NCBI GenBank assembly: GCA_902794395.1
Contig: CADBHB010000002.1
Location: 28,104-92,103 of the forward strand
Direction: 5' to 3'
Source: an uncultured Ruminococcus sp.
GTDB taxonomy: Bacteria; Bacillota; Clostridia; Oscillospirales; Acutalibacteraceae
DNA: 64,000 bases
A program made the translations under genes and the position numbers. Within the stretch, counting starts at the first letter, position 1. Every line of letters begins with the position of its first letter. Positions 11,755 to 64,000 of the stretch are shown here, piece after piece. The notes beneath the pieces are model-generated. The model was not told the DNA's origin. It made no database searches and saw only the letters and a program-made list of their open reading frames with translations.

Positions 11755-11831
11755 GTCTTCGTAGCTCAGCCGGATAGAGCGTCCGCCTCCTAAGCGGAAG
11801 GCCGTGGGTTCGAATCCCGCCGAGGACGCCA
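11755..11831 (+). tRNA. tRNA-Arg(CCT)
   Basis: This is a 77-nucleotide cloverleaf. Acceptor GTCTTCG pairs with CGAGGAC, the D arm is GCTCAGCCGGATAGAGC, the anticodon stem TCCGC/GCGGA holds loop CTCCTAA (anticodon CCT), the T arm is GGGTTCGAATCCC, and CCA is encoded. It reads AGG. Confidence 0.96.
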
Positions 11832-11876
11832 AATACTATAGGGGATACCCAAAAGGGTATCCCCTATAGTATTTGG
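11829..11876 (+). terminator. Perfect-hairpin terminator of tRNA-Arg
   Basis: A perfect inverted repeat of at least 20 bases (AAATACTATAGGGGATACCC, AAAA loop and its complement) starts inside the encoded CCA. A T-rich tract (ATATTTTTT) follows. The symmetry covers the tRNA's terminal CCA, because the right arm ends TTTGG. Confidence 0.85.
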
Positions 11877-11889
11877 CATATTTTTTAGA

Positions 11890-11955
11890 GGCGGGATTCA
11901 AAGGCGACCGTGCCGAGCGCAAGCGAGGTAAAAACGTCACAGTGTGACGTTTTTA
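11890..11955. repeat. tRNA-linked repeat, Arg locus: inverted tRNA 3' copy, conserved block, palindrome
   Basis: Bases 11890-11903 (GGCGGGATTCAAAG) are an inverted, slightly diverged copy of the tRNA-Arg T-arm/acceptor 3' strand. Directly after it comes the block GCGACCGTGCCGAGCG (11904-11919), then CAAGCGAGGT, then the palindrome AAAAACGTCACAG/TGTGACGTTTTT (11930-11954). The same block, in the same position relative to the tRNA, is found at the tRNA-Ala locus. Confidence 0.8.
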
Positions 11956-11979
11956 GACTAACTATTAAATGTAAGAGAA

Positions 11980-34038: not shown

Positions 34039-34238
34039 ACCTCGCTTCGCTCGGCACGGTCGCCTTCGATTTCCCTTATCTTTTTTTGCCGAAGATAACA
34101 CTTCCATATAACACCTGCCACGCTTGTTGCGGCGTGTGCAGAGCTATAAGCATCTGCAACACTCTCCCTAAAAACAGTCCACAGGACTGTTTTTACCTCG
34201 CTGTGCTCGGCACGGTCGCCTTCGATCCCCCTTATCTC
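34039..34238. repeat. tRNA-linked repeat array, Ala locus (two units)
   Basis: The array lies downstream of tRNA-Ala, which is on the minus strand. An inverted tRNA-Ala 3' copy (CCTTCGATCCCCCTTATCTC, 34219-34238) adjoins ACCTCGCTGTGCTCGGCACGGTCG (34195-34218) and a palindrome AAAAACAGTCCACAGGACTGTTTTT (34170-34194). A block, GCTTGTTGCGGCGTGTGCA (34122-34140), follows. Then comes a second inverted copy (CCTTCGATTTCCCTTATC, 34063-34080) adjoining ACCTCGCTTCGCTCGGCACGGTCG (34039-34062). The block GCCTCGGCAC..GGTCGCC is shared with the tRNA-Arg locus, and the TTGCGGCGTGTGCA block with tRNA-Val. Confidence 0.85.
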
Positions 34239-34245
34239 TTTATCA

Positions 34246-34285
34246 CCAAATAAAAACGGGTACCGAAGTACCCGTTTTTATTTGG
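34246..34285 (-). terminator. Terminator of tRNA-Ala, symmetric with the tRNA's own CCA
   Basis: CCAAATAAAAACGGGTAC, a 4-base loop and GTACCCGTTTTTATTTGG make a perfect 18-base stem. The outermost bases are the tRNA's encoded CCA and its mirror. Confidence 0.85.
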
Positions 34286-34358
34286 TGGAGATAAGGGGAA
34301 TCGAACCCCTGACCTCTTGAATGCGAACCAAGCGCTCTACCATCTGAGCTATACCCCC
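34283..34358 (-). tRNA. tRNA-Ala(CGC)
   Basis: This is a 76-nucleotide cloverleaf with CCA encoded. Acceptor GGGGGTA pairs with TATCTCC, including the G3-U70 identity pair of alanine tRNAs. The anticodon loop TTCGCAT carries CGC and the T arm reads GGGTTCGATTCCCC. It reads GCG. Confidence 0.95.
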
Positions 34359-54250: not shown

Positions 54251-56821
54251 ATGACAAAGAAAATCTTCTCCGTGATACTGGCTCTGGCGCTGGTATTGAC
54301 CTTCACCGTCTCCGCCGCGGCGGCGACAGCCGAAGATTCCTCAGCCGTCGGCGACACTGTCGCCCAAAGCGCGGTGCTGACCTTTTCGGACACCGCGATA
54401 ACGGAAACGTCCGCCGGCAGCGGCTACGCCATTGACGGAACAACGCTTACCATCACGGCGGCGGGCACCTACCGCATAGGCGGAAGCTGCTGTGAGGGCG
54501 CGATCGTCGTCGGCAAGGGTCTGAGCGGCGTCACGCTCATTTTGGATGATCTTACCCTCACTTCCTCGACTACGGCGCCTATCGTCGTCAAAAAGTCGGC
54601 GACCGTAAACATCCATCTTGAAGGCACCTCAACTATCACCGACAACGAGGATCCCGCAAACGAGACCTCAACCGACACCACTGTAGCGGAAGCCTTTGAA
54701 GGCGCGGCGATAAAGGTAAAGAGCGGTTCCGCCGTTACCTTCTGCGGCGACGGAAGCCTTGAGCTCGCAGCTAACGCGAAGAACGGCATAAAGGGCGGCT
54801 CGACCGCTTCGCTGATCTTCAACCAGAGCGGCACCATCAACGTAAGCGGCAGCGCCAACTACTACGGCGCTTCTACCTCAGGCGCGGCGGTCAACAACGG
54901 CATCGCCTGCGACGGCAGCATAGTCATCAATCGGGGCACCTACATCATCAAAGCCGCTAACGACGGCATCAAGAGCGCGCCCGACGCGACGAATGAAACC
55001 GAAGGAACGGTTATCGACACCGATTCCGCAGGCACCGTGACCATAAACGGCGGCACCTTTGATATTGACGTAGACGGCGACGGCATACAGGCGGATACCG
55101 AGCTGAACATCAACGGCGGCACCTTTGACATCCAAACCTGGAAGGGCAGCAGCGTATGGAACGATACGCTTGCGGCTTCCTACAGCTGCAAGGGTCTTAA
55201 AGCCTCGGGCGACCGCGCCGCAGAGGCGGAGCTTGAGCCTGCGCTAAACATCACGGGCGGCACCTTTACGCTGAACACGGGCGATGACGCGATCCATTCC
55301 GACGCCTACGCCACCGTTAACGGCGGCACCTTCACCATTTCGACAGGCGACGACGGTATGCACGGCGACACCTCGCTTATCATCGGCACAGAGAACGGAT
55401 ATGAGCGCGACCCCGACATAACCATCAACAGCTCTTATGAGGGACTTGAGGGCGGCACTGTCTACATGTATTCAGGACGCGCTTATGTTGTCGCGAGTGA
55501 CGACGGCGTCAACGCCGCAGGCGGCAGCGGCAACGGCTCCGACCCGGGCGCGGGCGGCGGAAACACGTTCAATCCCGGTGGCGGCGGCCCCGGCGGACGT
55601 CCCGGCGGCGGCTTCAACCCCGGCGGCGGCACTGCTCCGGGCGGCGATCAGTCATCCTCCTCGGGAGATTACAACATTTATATCTACGGCGGCGATTTGT
55701 ATGTTAACTGCACCGGCGACGGCATTGATTCCAACGGCGGGCTGTATCTCTACGGCGGCACCCAGGCTGTGTTCAGCATGCAGTCCGGCGGCGACAACTC
55801 TGCCCTCGACGCAGACGGCACCGTATCTATTCAAGGCGCGACTGTCTTTACGGCGGGCACTACCGGAATGGACGGCTCCGCTCAGTCAAGCTGGTTCGGC
55901 AGCGATCAAAAATACTCCGCAAACTCCTCAAGCTATTCATCCGGCAAGATCATCAACACCACCGCGGGCAGCGGCGGCAGCACGGTATTCAGCTATACGC
56001 TTCCGAGAAACGTCAACTACATCATGGCTTCATGGCCTTCAACAGTATCCGGCAGCACGCCTTCGTTCACGACCGCTTCAAGCGTAACAGCCTGCAAGGG
56101 CGGCTCTTGGAGCCATAACTGGGACACAGGCACTATAACGACCGCGGCGACTTCCGCTTCTGCCGGGGTAATGACCTACACCTGCACCAAATGCGGCGCG
56201 ACAGAACAGCAGACCATACCCATGACGATTTCCTTTGACGCCTGCGATCACTCCGTAGAGCAGGAGACGATCGCCGACGAGGGCTACACGGTCACCTTTG
56301 CGGGCGACAGCGGCGTAAGCTCCGTCACGGTATATAAAACGCAGGACTATAACGGCGAAAGCGAATCCGTTTCCGCGACCGGAACGACCGTTTCGCGCAG
56401 CAGCTCCACCGGAGAACCCGACTCAAGCGGCGACGGTCAGGTGAATTTCACCGTCGTGCTAAAGGGCGGCTACACCTTAAGCTCGGTGACCGCATCTGGC
56501 TCTTACAAGAATCTCAAGGATACAGACGTTAAAAACACCTACCGCGTCACCAAGATCAACGGCGAGGTGACTGTCACGATAACGACCGAACAGGCTGAAC
56601 CGACCGTAGAGTATCTTATCGGCGATGCTGACGGCAACGGCAAGGTAAACGTCAACGACATAACCGCTATACAAAGACACCTTGCTCAGGTAGAAACGCT
56701 TACAGGCACCTGCCTTGCAAACGCCGACGCGAACTGCGACGGCGAAGTGGACATAAACGACGCAACGCTTTTACAAATGTATCTGGCGGAGTTTGATGTT
56801 GTGCTTGGAGCGTCGTCGTGA
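54251..56821 (+). CDS. Secreted carbohydrate-binding protein (Cthe_2159-like) with dockerin
   Basis: The 856-residue protein has a signal peptide (1-25), a large repetitive beta-helix region (about 30-600) with repeated GGTF motifs (INGGTFDIDVDGDGIQAD), a Gly/Pro-rich linker near 430-475 (NPGGGGPGGRPGGG), a C-terminal Ig-like segment and a type I dockerin (792-852: GDADGNGKVNVNDITAIQRHL, NADANCDGEVDINDATLLQMYL, two calcium loops). The beta-helix fits the Cthe_2159/DUF4353 carbohydrate-binding family. The dockerin implies attachment to a cohesin-bearing scaffold; none is in the window. The start follows GAAAGGAG. Confidence 0.9.
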   Translation: MTKKIFSVILALALVLTFTVSAAAATAEDSSAVGDTVAQSAVLTFSDTAITETSAGSGYAIDGTTLTITAAGTYRIGGSCCEGAIVVGKGLSGVTLILDDLTLTSSTTAPIVVKKSATVNIHLEGTSTITDNEDPANETSTDTTVAEAFEGAAIKVKSGSAVTFCGDGSLELAANAKNGIKGGSTASLIFNQSGTINVSGSANYYGASTSGAAVNNGIACDGSIVINRGTYIIKAANDGIKSAPDATNETEGTVIDTDSAGTVTINGGTFDIDVDGDGIQADTELNINGGTFDIQTWKGSSVWNDTLAASYSCKGLKASGDRAAEAELEPALNITGGTFTLNTGDDAIHSDAYATVNGGTFTISTGDDGMHGDTSLIIGTENGYERDPDITINSSYEGLEGGTVYMYSGRAYVVASDDGVNAAGGSGNGSDPGAGGGNTFNPGGGGPGGRPGGGFNPGGGTAPGGDQSSSSGDYNIYIYGGDLYVNCTGDGIDSNGGLYLYGGTQAVFSMQSGGDNSALDADGTVSIQGATVFTAGTTGMDGSAQSSWFGSDQKYSANSSSYSSGKIINTTAGSGGSTVFSYTLPRNVNYIMASWPSTVSGSTPSFTTASSVTACKGGSWSHNWDTGTITTAATSASAGVMTYTCTKCGATEQQTIPMTISFDACDHSVEQETIADEGYTVTFAGDSGVSSVTVYKTQDYNGESESVSATGTTVSRSSSTGEPDSSGDGQVNFTVVLKGGYTLSSVTASGSYKNLKDTDVKNTYRVTKINGEVTVTITTEQAEPTVEYLIGDADGNGKVNVNDITAIQRHLAQVETLTGTCLANADANCDGEVDINDATLLQMYLAEFDVVLGASS

Positions 56822-62451: not shown

Positions 62452-62591
62452 CAGACCTCCTGCGTCAAGCGTTTTTCGCAAATGACGCAGGAGGTCGAAG
62501 CTTTTTTGAGAGAATAGAGAAAACCCATATAAACACTGAGCTTATGCGAGTTTTTGTGGGAAATGTCGGACTCGATGCAGTGACCTCTTGC
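62452..62591. repeat. Degraded tRNA-Val fragments
   Basis: GACCTCCTGCGTC (62452) and GACGCAGGAGGTC form a hairpin; the arms match the anticodon-stem and variable-loop sequence of tRNA-Val. At 62567-62590 GGACTCGA..CAGTGACCTC.TGC matches 21 of 24 bases of the tRNA-Val T arm and variable loop (as read on the plus strand). The rest of this piece is unlike the tRNA, so this is not a functional tRNA. Confidence 0.6.
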
Positions 62592-62767
62592 TTCACACAT
62601 AGGAGGTCTGATGCTGTTATATAAAAAGGAAACGGCATTGTCCCGCGCTCAATGACACCAGCCACTGAGAAAGATTCGTTCACAATGCCGTTCAAAGCCT
62701 TTCCGCTACACCAAGTGAAATGAATCCTCTCGCAAACGTCCTAAACGCTTAGCGATACAGCTTTTGA

Positions 62768-62890
62768 TGGTGGAGAATGCTTACGTTCATCTTGAGAAAC
62801 GCTCTGCCTCGTTTGCTGCGGCGTGTGCATAGCTATGCTTTCATCTGTCCCCGTCCGCTAAAAACGTGCCCCCGGCACGTTTTCTTTACG
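62768..62890. repeat. tRNA-Val-linked repeat, distal copy (123 bases)
   Basis: This unit begins with TGGTGGAGAATGC, the reverse complement of the tRNA-Val 3' end with CCA, continues with the block GTTTGCTGCGGCGTGTGCATAG and ends in a palindrome (AAAACGTGCC..GGCACGTTTT). It is almost identical to 63052-63174, with two visible base differences. Confidence 0.85.
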
Positions 62891-63007
62891 GGGTCCGTTT
62901 GAAACATGGTCGTTCAGCGTCGTACCTAAAGGTACTTCCTCGAACTCCCTGTTTCTGCGCTTCCTCGTTCTCCCTTCATCCGCCACCGGCGGCGGTCGAA
63001 CTCGTCA

Positions 63008-63034
63008 CCTTCGAGTCCGGCATTCTCTTTTTGG
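63008..63034. repeat. Inverted tRNA-Val 3' copy, distal
   Basis: CCTTCGAGTCCGGCATTCTCTTTTTGG closely follows the tRNA-Val T-arm/acceptor sequence GGTTCGAGTCCAGCATTCTCCACCA, but in the opposite orientation to the functional gene. It stands 18 bases from the next TGGTGGAGAATGC. Confidence 0.8.
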
Positions 63035-63051
63035 TTTGCTCGATTCATTAA

Positions 63052-63174
63052 TGGTGGAGAATGCTTACGTTCATCTTGAGAAACGCTCTGCCTCGCTTGC
63101 TGCGGCGTGTGCATAGCTATGCTTTCATCTGTCCCCGTCCGCTAAAAACGTGCCGCCGGCACGTTTTCTTTACG
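63052..63174. repeat. tRNA-Val-linked repeat, proximal copy (123 bases)
   Basis: It has the same structure as 62768-62890. It opens with the last 13 bases of tRNA-Val and ends in a palindrome, AAAACGTGCC-G-CCGGCACGTTTT. The distance to the real tRNA's 3' end is 202 bases, and to the distal copy 284 bases. Confidence 0.85.
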
Positions 63175-63178
63175 CGAA

Positions 63179-63205
63179 CCTTCGAGTCCATCATTCTCCT
63201 TTTGG
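63179..63205. repeat. Inverted tRNA-Val 3' copy, proximal
   Basis: CCTTCGAGTCCATCATTCTCCTTTTGG is an inverted, diverged copy of the tRNA-Val 3' end. Between it and the tRNA, TGAAATAACGG...CCGTTATTTCA (63212-63253) makes the terminator stem, so the region reads as one extended palindrome with the tRNA 3' end on one side. Confidence 0.8.
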
Positions 63206-63253
63206 TTTACTGAATGAAATAACGGACAGTCCGTTGGACTATCCGTTATTTCA

Positions 63254-63330
63254 TGGTGGAGAATGCTGGACTCGAACCAGTGACCTCCTGCGTGTGAAGC
63301 AGGCGCTCTATCCAGCTGAGCTAATCCTCC
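63254..63330 (-). tRNA. tRNA-Val(CAC)
   Basis: This is a 77-nucleotide cloverleaf with CCA encoded. Acceptor GGAGGAT pairs with the 3' strand, the anticodon stem CCTGC/GCAGG encloses TTCACAC (anticodon CAC), and the T arm is GGTTCGAGTCC. It reads GUG. Confidence 0.93.
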
Positions 63331-63335
63331 GTATT

Positions 63336-63351
63336 TGGTCGGAGTGAAGGG
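63336..63351 (-). repeat. Extra copy of a tRNA-Pro 3' end
   Basis: TGGTCGGAGTGAAGGG is identical to the last 16 bases (with CCA) of the tRNA-Pro 3' half at 63431. It lies 95 bases downstream of it, directly before tRNA-Val. Confidence 0.75.
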
Positions 63352-63390
63352 CGTTTCATCTTGCGAAAACTTCCGTTTCGCTTGTTGATA

Positions 63391-63430
63391 ATATTTCTTA
63401 AAGGCATTCTCCGAATACCTTTAAGAAATA
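63391..63430 (-). terminator. Hairpin after the tRNA-Pro fragment
   Basis: ATATTTCTTAAAGGCATTC, TCC and GAATACCTTTAAGAAATAT form a 19-base stem with one wobble or mismatch. As at the other tRNAs, it begins directly after the encoded CCA. Confidence 0.65.
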
Positions 63431-63475
63431 TGGTCGGAGTGAAGGGACTTGAACCCCCGACATTCTGCTCCCAAA
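63431..63475 (-). pseudogene. tRNA-Pro(TGG) 3' half, probable attachment site
   Basis: The minus strand reads TTTGGGAGCAGAATGTCGGG, GGTTCAAGTCCC and TTCACTCCGACCA: the anticodon loop with TGG, the 3' anticodon strand, T arm, acceptor 3' strand and CCA of a proline tRNA. The sequence upstream (from 63476) has no D arm or matching 5' acceptor (CGGAGTG expected). A precise 3' half like this is what tRNA-targeting integration leaves at one element end. Confidence 0.75.
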
Positions 63476-64000
63476 GAGATAAAATAGATTGGGAATAAAT
63501 CCATGCCACAACATATAGTGGTATCTGTTCCGGAAAAATGCTCTTTGGCGGTCTTTGCCGCACTGTTTCCGTGTGCCCCAAAGCGCGTTATGGTCGGGTA
63601 TGTGGTCAGAGTTCCTCAAACTATTTGTTCAACCTCTTGAATCCAATCCGGTCGATAGCCGTTTGTATAAAACCAAAGAGCACAAAATGAAAATCAATAG
63701 CATTCCGAAAAAGTCAACAAATATTCCAAAACGGGAATATTTTTCTTGATTTCACATAAGTTTTCCCATTTCGGAATATTTCATTCTTCCTTCGCGCGTA
63801 AGTTTATCGCCGATTTTTTCAGTCGTCGATAAATCCGCTCCGATCAACAGGTAACGTTTTTCAGCTCGTTATTTTCACCGAGGATCAGATTTCTGAAAAA
63901 CTTTTGCCTCATCACGGAAAAATGTGGGATAACGAAAATTAAATATTGAAAAAGAGCATAGGAAGCTCCATAATTGTAGTTGCTCAGAAAAACAATAAGG
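63476..64000. other. AT-rich region with no recognised gene
   Basis: No convincing coding frame was found on either strand. AAATATTCC, AAAAC and GGGAATATTTTT (63718-63743) form a terminator-like hairpin. A related string, CGGAATATTTC, lies at about 63773. The composition differs from the core genes, consistent with the start of an element that continues beyond the window. Confidence 0.5.

Follow-up and report, generated by a model that had tools for sequence, protein, structure and literature searches.

The two repeated units behind the tRNA-Val(CAC) gene described here probably belong to a family of small, non-autonomous insertion elements that are specific for the 3' ends of tRNA genes and whose arrays form by recombination. 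The units lie in a stretch of 64,000 nucleotides (the window) from an uncultured Ruminococcus sp., and on this reading what looked like the curiosity of a single tRNA becomes a genus-wide element with an empty site that can be checked. Several features can be seen directly in the sequences, namely the position of the units, a direct copy of the local tRNA end, empty and filled sites, and relatives within the same genome that sit at different tRNA types.

The 3' end of the tRNA-Val gene, which reads TGGTGGAGAATGCT on the plus strand, recurs exactly at 63254, 63052 and 62768. The initial annotation gave the same three positions but a length of 13 bases instead of 14. The long repeat, which it put at 123 bases, does contain two differences within those 123 bp, but in full it covers 127 bp (62764-62890 and 63048-63174, 97.6% identity, spacing 284 bp). 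Inverted copies of the tRNA end are also present, two bases away from where they had been placed (63181 and 63010 instead of 63179 and 63008), and both are parts of the element units, a point that the initial annotation had missed along with the palindrome that begins directly after the CCA. The features of the locus are given below; R1 is a covariance model built from 32 sequences.

63254..63330, minus strand: tRNA-Val(CAC), the target gene with encoded CCA (ARAGORN and Rfam)
63066..63253, minus strand: element copy 1, 188 bp, directly after the CCA (R1 match 63074-63175, 96.3 bits)
63215..63253, minus strand: left-end palindrome of copy 1, a terminator-like hairpin of 39 nt directly after the CCA (inverted-repeat listing, exact string)
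63181..63199, minus strand: inverted tRNA-Val 3' arm of copy 1, 18/19 nt (95% complementary; inverted-repeat listing)
63144..63170, minus strand: covarying hairpin of copy 1, 11 bp stem and 3-nt loop (alignment)
63091..63111, minus strand: core motif of copy 1, CACACGCCGCARCAARCGAGG, the most conserved part (alignment)
63052..63065, minus strand: closing direct copy of copy 1, tRNA-Val 3' end, 14 nt (exact string)
62782..63051, minus strand: element copy 2, 270 bp (R1 match 62790-62891, 92.4 bits)
63010..63027, minus strand: inverted tRNA-Val copy of copy 2, 17/18 nt (94%; inverted-repeat listing)
62860..62886, minus strand: covarying hairpin of copy 2 (sequence string)
62768..62781, minus strand: closing direct copy of copy 2, tRNA-Val 3' end, 14 nt (exact string)

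Read from the tRNA, a unit of about 185-215 bp thus consists of the encoded CCA, the palindrome, the inverted tRNA 3' arm, the covarying hairpin, the core and the direct copy. In copy 2 the palindrome is mostly gone (by eye) and an additional internal stretch is present (62891-63006), which starts like GACGAGNNCGACC and also occurs in loci L017 and L115; judged by eye, it may be another dispersed repeat of the window genome. From the sequences, the near identity of the two copies would be explained more simply by one insertion, amplified through recombination between the 14-bp copies, than by two insertions. In two other arrays (L010, L018) the tandem repeat includes the palindrome, and the end of the array consists of tRNA end and terminator, like fractional repeats. 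Further downstream, at 62454-62496 and 62556-62608, there are copies of the tRNA-Val anticodon arm (GACCTCCTGCGT) and inverted copies of it, which give rise to an inverted repeat of 14 nt and to a stretch resembling a degenerate tRNA. No recombinase was found in the ten ORFs scanned, out of 38 ORFs of at least 110 aa between 44 and 64 kb of the window. The same part of the window (54251-56821) encodes a protein that combines a Cthe_2159 carbohydrate-binding domain with a dockerin, as would be in keeping with a fibre-degrading bacterium.

The window contains further units that had escaped the initial annotation, in various states of preservation, and part of another tRNA gene:

63431..63476, minus strand: tRNA-Pro(TGG) 3' half, positions 31-76 (tRNA match; equal to G000:C2:91534-91579)
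63352..63430, minus strand: decayed tRNA-Pro element (weak R1 match 63359-63404, E 0.0056)
63336..63351, minus strand: direct 16-nt tRNA-Pro 3'-end copy closing the decayed element (sequence string)
34101..34282, minus strand: element behind tRNA-Ala(CGC) (tRNA 34283-34358; R1 match 34101-34201, 92.8 bits)
11832..11956, plus strand: partial element behind tRNA-Arg(CCT) (tRNA 11755-11831; R1 match 11930-11956, 27.1 bits)

The decayed element retains its palindrome (63393-63429) and has lost its middle (by eye), the tRNA-Ala(CGC) element has a degenerate direct copy at its right end, and the tRNA-Arg(CCT) element keeps the palindrome, the inverted copy and the hairpin only. The tRNA-Pro(TGG) 3' half lies near the contig end and probably represents the distal end of an integrated island. 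Many relatives have the 5' part alone or the 3' part alone, and these split matches suggest that islands have integrated at the anticodon repeatedly.

A DNA query of the window genome gave 16 matches at E up to 0.001, four of which are the palindromic hairpin on the other strand, leaving 12 places that include the two window copies. Since there are 12 such distinct places, and R1 finds 20 matches in this genome of 2.2 Mb, chance is excluded as an explanation. The family is dispersed well beyond one genome: a sample of 120 genomes of the genus gave R1 matches in 114 (and in 74 of the 79 best assemblies), and the six genomes without a match were so classified under the stricter filters of the genus-wide search, which drop weak matches. 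Copy number is not fixed, as it ranges from 0 to 43 matches per genome. At the level of the order, 38 of 197 genomes (the window genome included) gave R1 matches, many of them to the hairpin only. Among the 11 order-level loci fetched from other genomes, five (L149, L151, L154, L156, L157) lie behind a tRNA whose end is copied, exactly in four cases and with a mismatch in L149; the other six do not. A search of named contigs for the exact core pattern returned 11 records, ten of which are called Clostridia, Clostridiales, Ruminococcaceae, Ruminococcus or bacterium, some being of rumen or other gut origin according to their titles. The eleventh, L099 (Rhizorhabdus), is probably a chance match, and the viral contigs searched for the exact core pattern gave none. 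The core can be read as a peptide resembling M(H/N)TPQQA, which is unlikely to be real, as by eye the frame is broken by stop codons in two or more units, L044 and L049 among them.

The fetched loci contain 115 distinct units, and 77 of these have a tRNA of the same strand no more than 700 nt ahead of them (a set that includes six order-level units: L149, L153, L154, L156 twice and L157). The unit starts 45-114 nt from the tRNA end in 58 of the 77, and 178-686 nt from it in the remaining 19. Altogether 25 tRNA types are followed by a unit, or 31 if a second set, from stretches of four genomes, is included. These stretches were chosen for holding matches and cover a subset of the matches in those genomes; in them an intact tRNA lies within 1000 nt upstream of 68 of 100 units. 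The other 32 were inspected by eye: 14 follow a longer tRNA 3' part and three a short tRNA 3' end, and the remaining ones are near contig ends or without assignment. The units are therefore not found mostly away from tRNA genes, with 68 behind an intact tRNA and 17 more behind a fragment. Which tRNAs are occupied varies from genome to genome. Pure local slippage of the tRNA 3' end, which the initial annotation had offered as an alternative origin, could account for the existence of tandem arrays. As the sole origin it is scarcely credible, since it is already contradicted by the same core standing behind 25 tRNA types and missing from empty sites.

The most direct view of the insertion is given by the tRNA-Pro(TGG) loci. 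By eye, 30 such loci fall into ten with a unit, two with a partial unit, five empty ones with tRNA-Val close behind, eight without unit and with other neighbours, and five at a contig edge; the last two groups, G122 apart, say little. At four of the empty sites (G108, G063, G090 and G106) CCGACCA is followed directly by AATACGG of tRNA-Val, which is itself damaged in G106, and the fifth (G077) has a variant spacer. In the filled site of G000 the same flanks enclose 185 bp plus a 14-bp copy of the tRNA-Pro end. In G086 they enclose 209 bp plus the tRNA copy, with one base changed in the copy and a base change in the spacer. Three more filled sites, G006 (184 bp), G083 (210 bp) and G152, have variant spacers. 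As the empty sites have no terminator at this point, the palindrome must belong to the insert. A second pair comes from a different neighbourhood, where G122 is empty and G023 contains 215 bp plus a shorter, imperfect tRNA copy; the sequence behind the unit in G023 and that behind the tRNA in G122 are identical at 110 of 131 positions, a terminator-like hairpin included. The two sets of empty and filled sites show that the insert sits exactly after the CCA and that the tRNA end is duplicated, which supports the proposal of the initial annotation that the tRNA end is regenerated upon insertion. The empty sites could be precise deletions between repeats instead of pre-insertion states; many gains are nevertheless required, because the same core is found behind 25 tRNA types. 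A synteny search for further empty sites with the downstream flanks of three loci led to 29 loci in other genomes, of which one had a tRNA and none a unit. In six loci (L276, L277, L292, L294, L299 and L301) a 5' part of tRNA-Pro (approximately positions 1-40) is found about 170-190 bp ahead of the full tRNA-Pro, possibly as the relic of a different small insertion.

The direct copy was sought, anchored at the CCA, in the 115 nt behind the hairpin of the 77 units. Its length is exactly 14 nt in 29 units; 34 units have a copy of 14 or 15 nt, and 41 fall within 13-16 nt. Five copies are longer and seven shorter, and for the other 24 units no copy ending at the CCA was found within the 115 nt searched. 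When the longest direct match is considered, the local tRNA is strictly the best among all tails in 65 of the 77 units. The typical copy is the last 14 nt of the local tRNA (positions 63-76). The frequent 14-bp copy speaks for a staggered cut and against core-matched site-specific recombination between tRNA types. Integration by a casposase, an enzyme of the Cas1 type, would also produce duplications of 14-15 bp at the very 3' end of tRNA genes, as outlined in PMC6977970, i.e. of equal length and at a similar site. We nevertheless consider it very improbable. No terminal inverted repeats were seen at the ends of four Pro inserts inspected by eye, and Cas1 (PF01867) was found in five of 12 carrier genomes and not in the other seven, which are drafts; G128, G033 and G015 are without a Cas1 hit despite having 25-39 element matches.

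The inverted copy, the most unusual part of the unit and one that the initial annotation noted but left unexplained, is local as well, although less strictly so. It matches the local tRNA strictly better than any other in 36 of the 77 units, with ties in 17; if only positions 62-73 are compared, the number of strictly best matches is ten. A per-position test was carried out on the 68 units with a score of at least 35, 61 of which are anchored. Agreement with the local tRNA, as compared to other tRNAs, is 0.98 vs 0.49 at position 57, 0.90 vs 0.42 at position 59, 0.84 vs 0.38 at position 64 and 0.69 vs 0.27 at position 67, and it reaches the background level by position 72. From this agreement it follows that the inverted copy spans the T-loop, the 3' strand of the T-stem and the first acceptor bases; it covers about positions 54-68, and past that it is often interrupted (by eye).

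Such a local inverted copy could result from fold-back synthesis or from selection on RNA pairing. The latter would be expected if the unit were a host RNA module, in which the inverted copy masks the tRNA 3' arm in the folded read-through transcript and the acceptor stem is formed with the second 14-nt copy, the unit thereby tuning tRNA output or giving rise to a small RNA; a role of this kind has been claimed for the rtT repeats of E. coli. The predicted fold of tRNA-Val with copy 1 does bury the 3' arm of the tRNA and form an acceptor stem with the second copy (z -9.2, reached by none of 200 shuffles), and both the inverted and the direct copies track the local tRNA. The hairpin shows pair-keeping changes on both sides at 7 of its 11 pairs, which speaks for such a module, and selection and template switching fit this pattern alike; RNAalifold found no conserved RNA structure other than the hairpin. 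On the other hand, the first terminator-like hairpin precedes the inverted copy, which would thus be transcribed on read-through only; empty sites exist; six of 120 genomes are without a match (under the stricter filters); and different tRNAs are occupied in different genomes. We regard the RNA module as an unlikely explanation for the family. Retrotransposition primed at the tRNA locus, for which the TGG and tRNA complement on the plus strand would resemble a primer-binding site, would account for a target duplication together with an inverted copy that looks like template switching. We give this very little credence: reverse transcriptase (PF00078) was found in six of the 12 carriers and not in the other six, which include the single-contig genomes G144 and G082 as well as G146 with its 43 matches. 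Self-primed reverse transcription from the terminator was rejected as a source of the inverted copy, as reverse transcriptase is not universal. G084, G143 and G088 have neither a reverse transcriptase nor a Cas1 hit. Neither protein seems to be needed for the persistence of the element; most carriers are drafts, and past activity is possible.

The relationships between the units point to spread within genomes. For this analysis 72 of the 100 units were kept (score of at least 35, long enough), the tRNA type of orphans being set by hand. For 38 of the 72 units the nearest relative stands behind another tRNA type of the same genome, as opposed to 18.6 expected, and none of 5000 shuffles reached this value (maximum 35). 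Without the hand-set types, the nearest relative is in the same genome for 42 of 72 (18.4 expected). If matches in other genomes only are considered, the nearest relative is at the same tRNA in 8 of 72 vs 2.2 expected (27 of 5000 shuffles were as high). Judging by these similarities, spread within genomes and inheritance both seem to contribute, and concerted evolution or gene conversion inside a genome could be another source of the same-genome signal. This clustering by genome across tRNA types is at odds with the idea that the units are remnant or satellite attachment sites of tyrosine-recombinase islands at tRNA 3' ends, moved in trans, and a move between types by recombination at a shared core would not be expected to bring in the end of the new tRNA. 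The idea is not without basis, as islands seem to make heavy use of tRNA genes here: many genomes match tRNA-Pro(TGG) with just its 5' part or just its 3' part, a longer tRNA 3' part precedes 14 of the 32 units that lack an intact tRNA (by eye), and the direct copy of L141 is entered by a reading frame that ends like the C-terminus of an integrase (frame read by eye). Overall we find it rather improbable.

For the insertion element that we favour, the following course of events can be proposed. The element would insert into the chromosome immediately after the CCA that a tRNA gene encodes, where a recombinase or transposase acting in trans would make a staggered cut, and the duplication of the target end, typically its last 14 bp (positions 63-76), would keep the tRNA intact. 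Arrays like that of the window would then gain and lose units as their 14-bp copies recombine. As for the inverted copy (positions 54-68), it may start as a generic anti-T-arm carried by the element, to be made local by fold-back or quasi-palindrome template switching through the palindrome, or else it may be written in at insertion. Fold-back synthesis is known in yeast, where short templated inverted duplications at breaks are outlined in PMC11724301. No helper gene was found in the searches made, i.e. for reverse transcriptase and Cas1 in 12 carriers and among ten ORFs near the window locus. The initial interpretation of the locus is thus partly supported, and the family poses a testable puzzle, namely how a gene-less element can reach many different tRNA genes and come to contain part of each in reverse. 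An enzyme able to cut tRNA 3' ends with a 14-bp stagger would also be worth finding for its usefulness.

It is instructive to compare the family with known systems; a survey of the open-access literature by titles and abstract starts gave no description of such a family. MITEs and REP/BIME repeats are likewise short, dispersed, palindromic and without a gene, but unlike the new family they are, to our knowledge, not restricted to tRNA 3' ends and have no reversed target copy. Tyrosine-recombinase islands in tRNA genes resemble the family in that the tRNA 3' end is restored and a direct repeat is found at the far end; they are, however, long, carry an integrase gene and do not supply a different tRNA end when the target changes. 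Casposons share the 14-15-bp target duplication at tRNA 3' ends, as far as outlined in PMC6977970. They carry terminal inverted repeats and genes including Cas1, neither of which was seen in the new family.

The closest parallel in organisation is with the rtT repeats of E. coli (RF00391), which like the new family lie behind a tRNA, have each unit closed by a copy of the tRNA 3' end (19 bp) and contain an inverted tRNA copy inside the unit. The tyrT repeats consist of a 178-bp unit, and a role in the stringent response has been claimed for rtT. The inverted copy of the K-12 unit, GGGGAAGGATGAGAA, matches at 13 of 15 positions (none of 2000 shuffles), and that of the BL21 spacer at 12 of 15. 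In both strains the unit stands between two tRNA-Tyr genes (tyrV/tyrT), flanked by the 19-bp sequence AATCCTTCCCCCACCACCA; in RM12761 this sequence is directly followed by the next spacer, i.e. tyrV/tyrT is empty. Unit matches occur in 4695 of 5426 E. coli genomes, at 1-14 places (median 3 in matching genomes). A genome without a match does not equal an empty site, since two of five further strains opened, EC958 and N96, have no tRNA-Tyr beside narI. Matches to rtT are also listed in 28 plasmid records and one phage record, several of them chromosome-sized. The two families differ in that the duplication is longer in rtT, which was checked here at tRNA-Tyr only, and the covariance models do not link them: the RF00391 model gives four E. 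coli matches of 133-138 bits and, up to an E of 1, none in the 11 loci searched of the new family, so that the new family does not reach its gathering cut-off, and R1 matches none of four E. coli loci. The rtT-like organisation as such, with a unit behind the tRNA, a closing 3'-end copy and an internal inverted copy, is found in the new family, and the common layout may reflect common descent or convergence. A tentative extension, possible rather than probable in our view, is that there is a class of gene-less elements which gain direct and inverted copies of their target, the target serving as the template, and that rtT is another branch of it that arose by mobile insertion. This would provide a concrete hypothesis for the origin of rtT.
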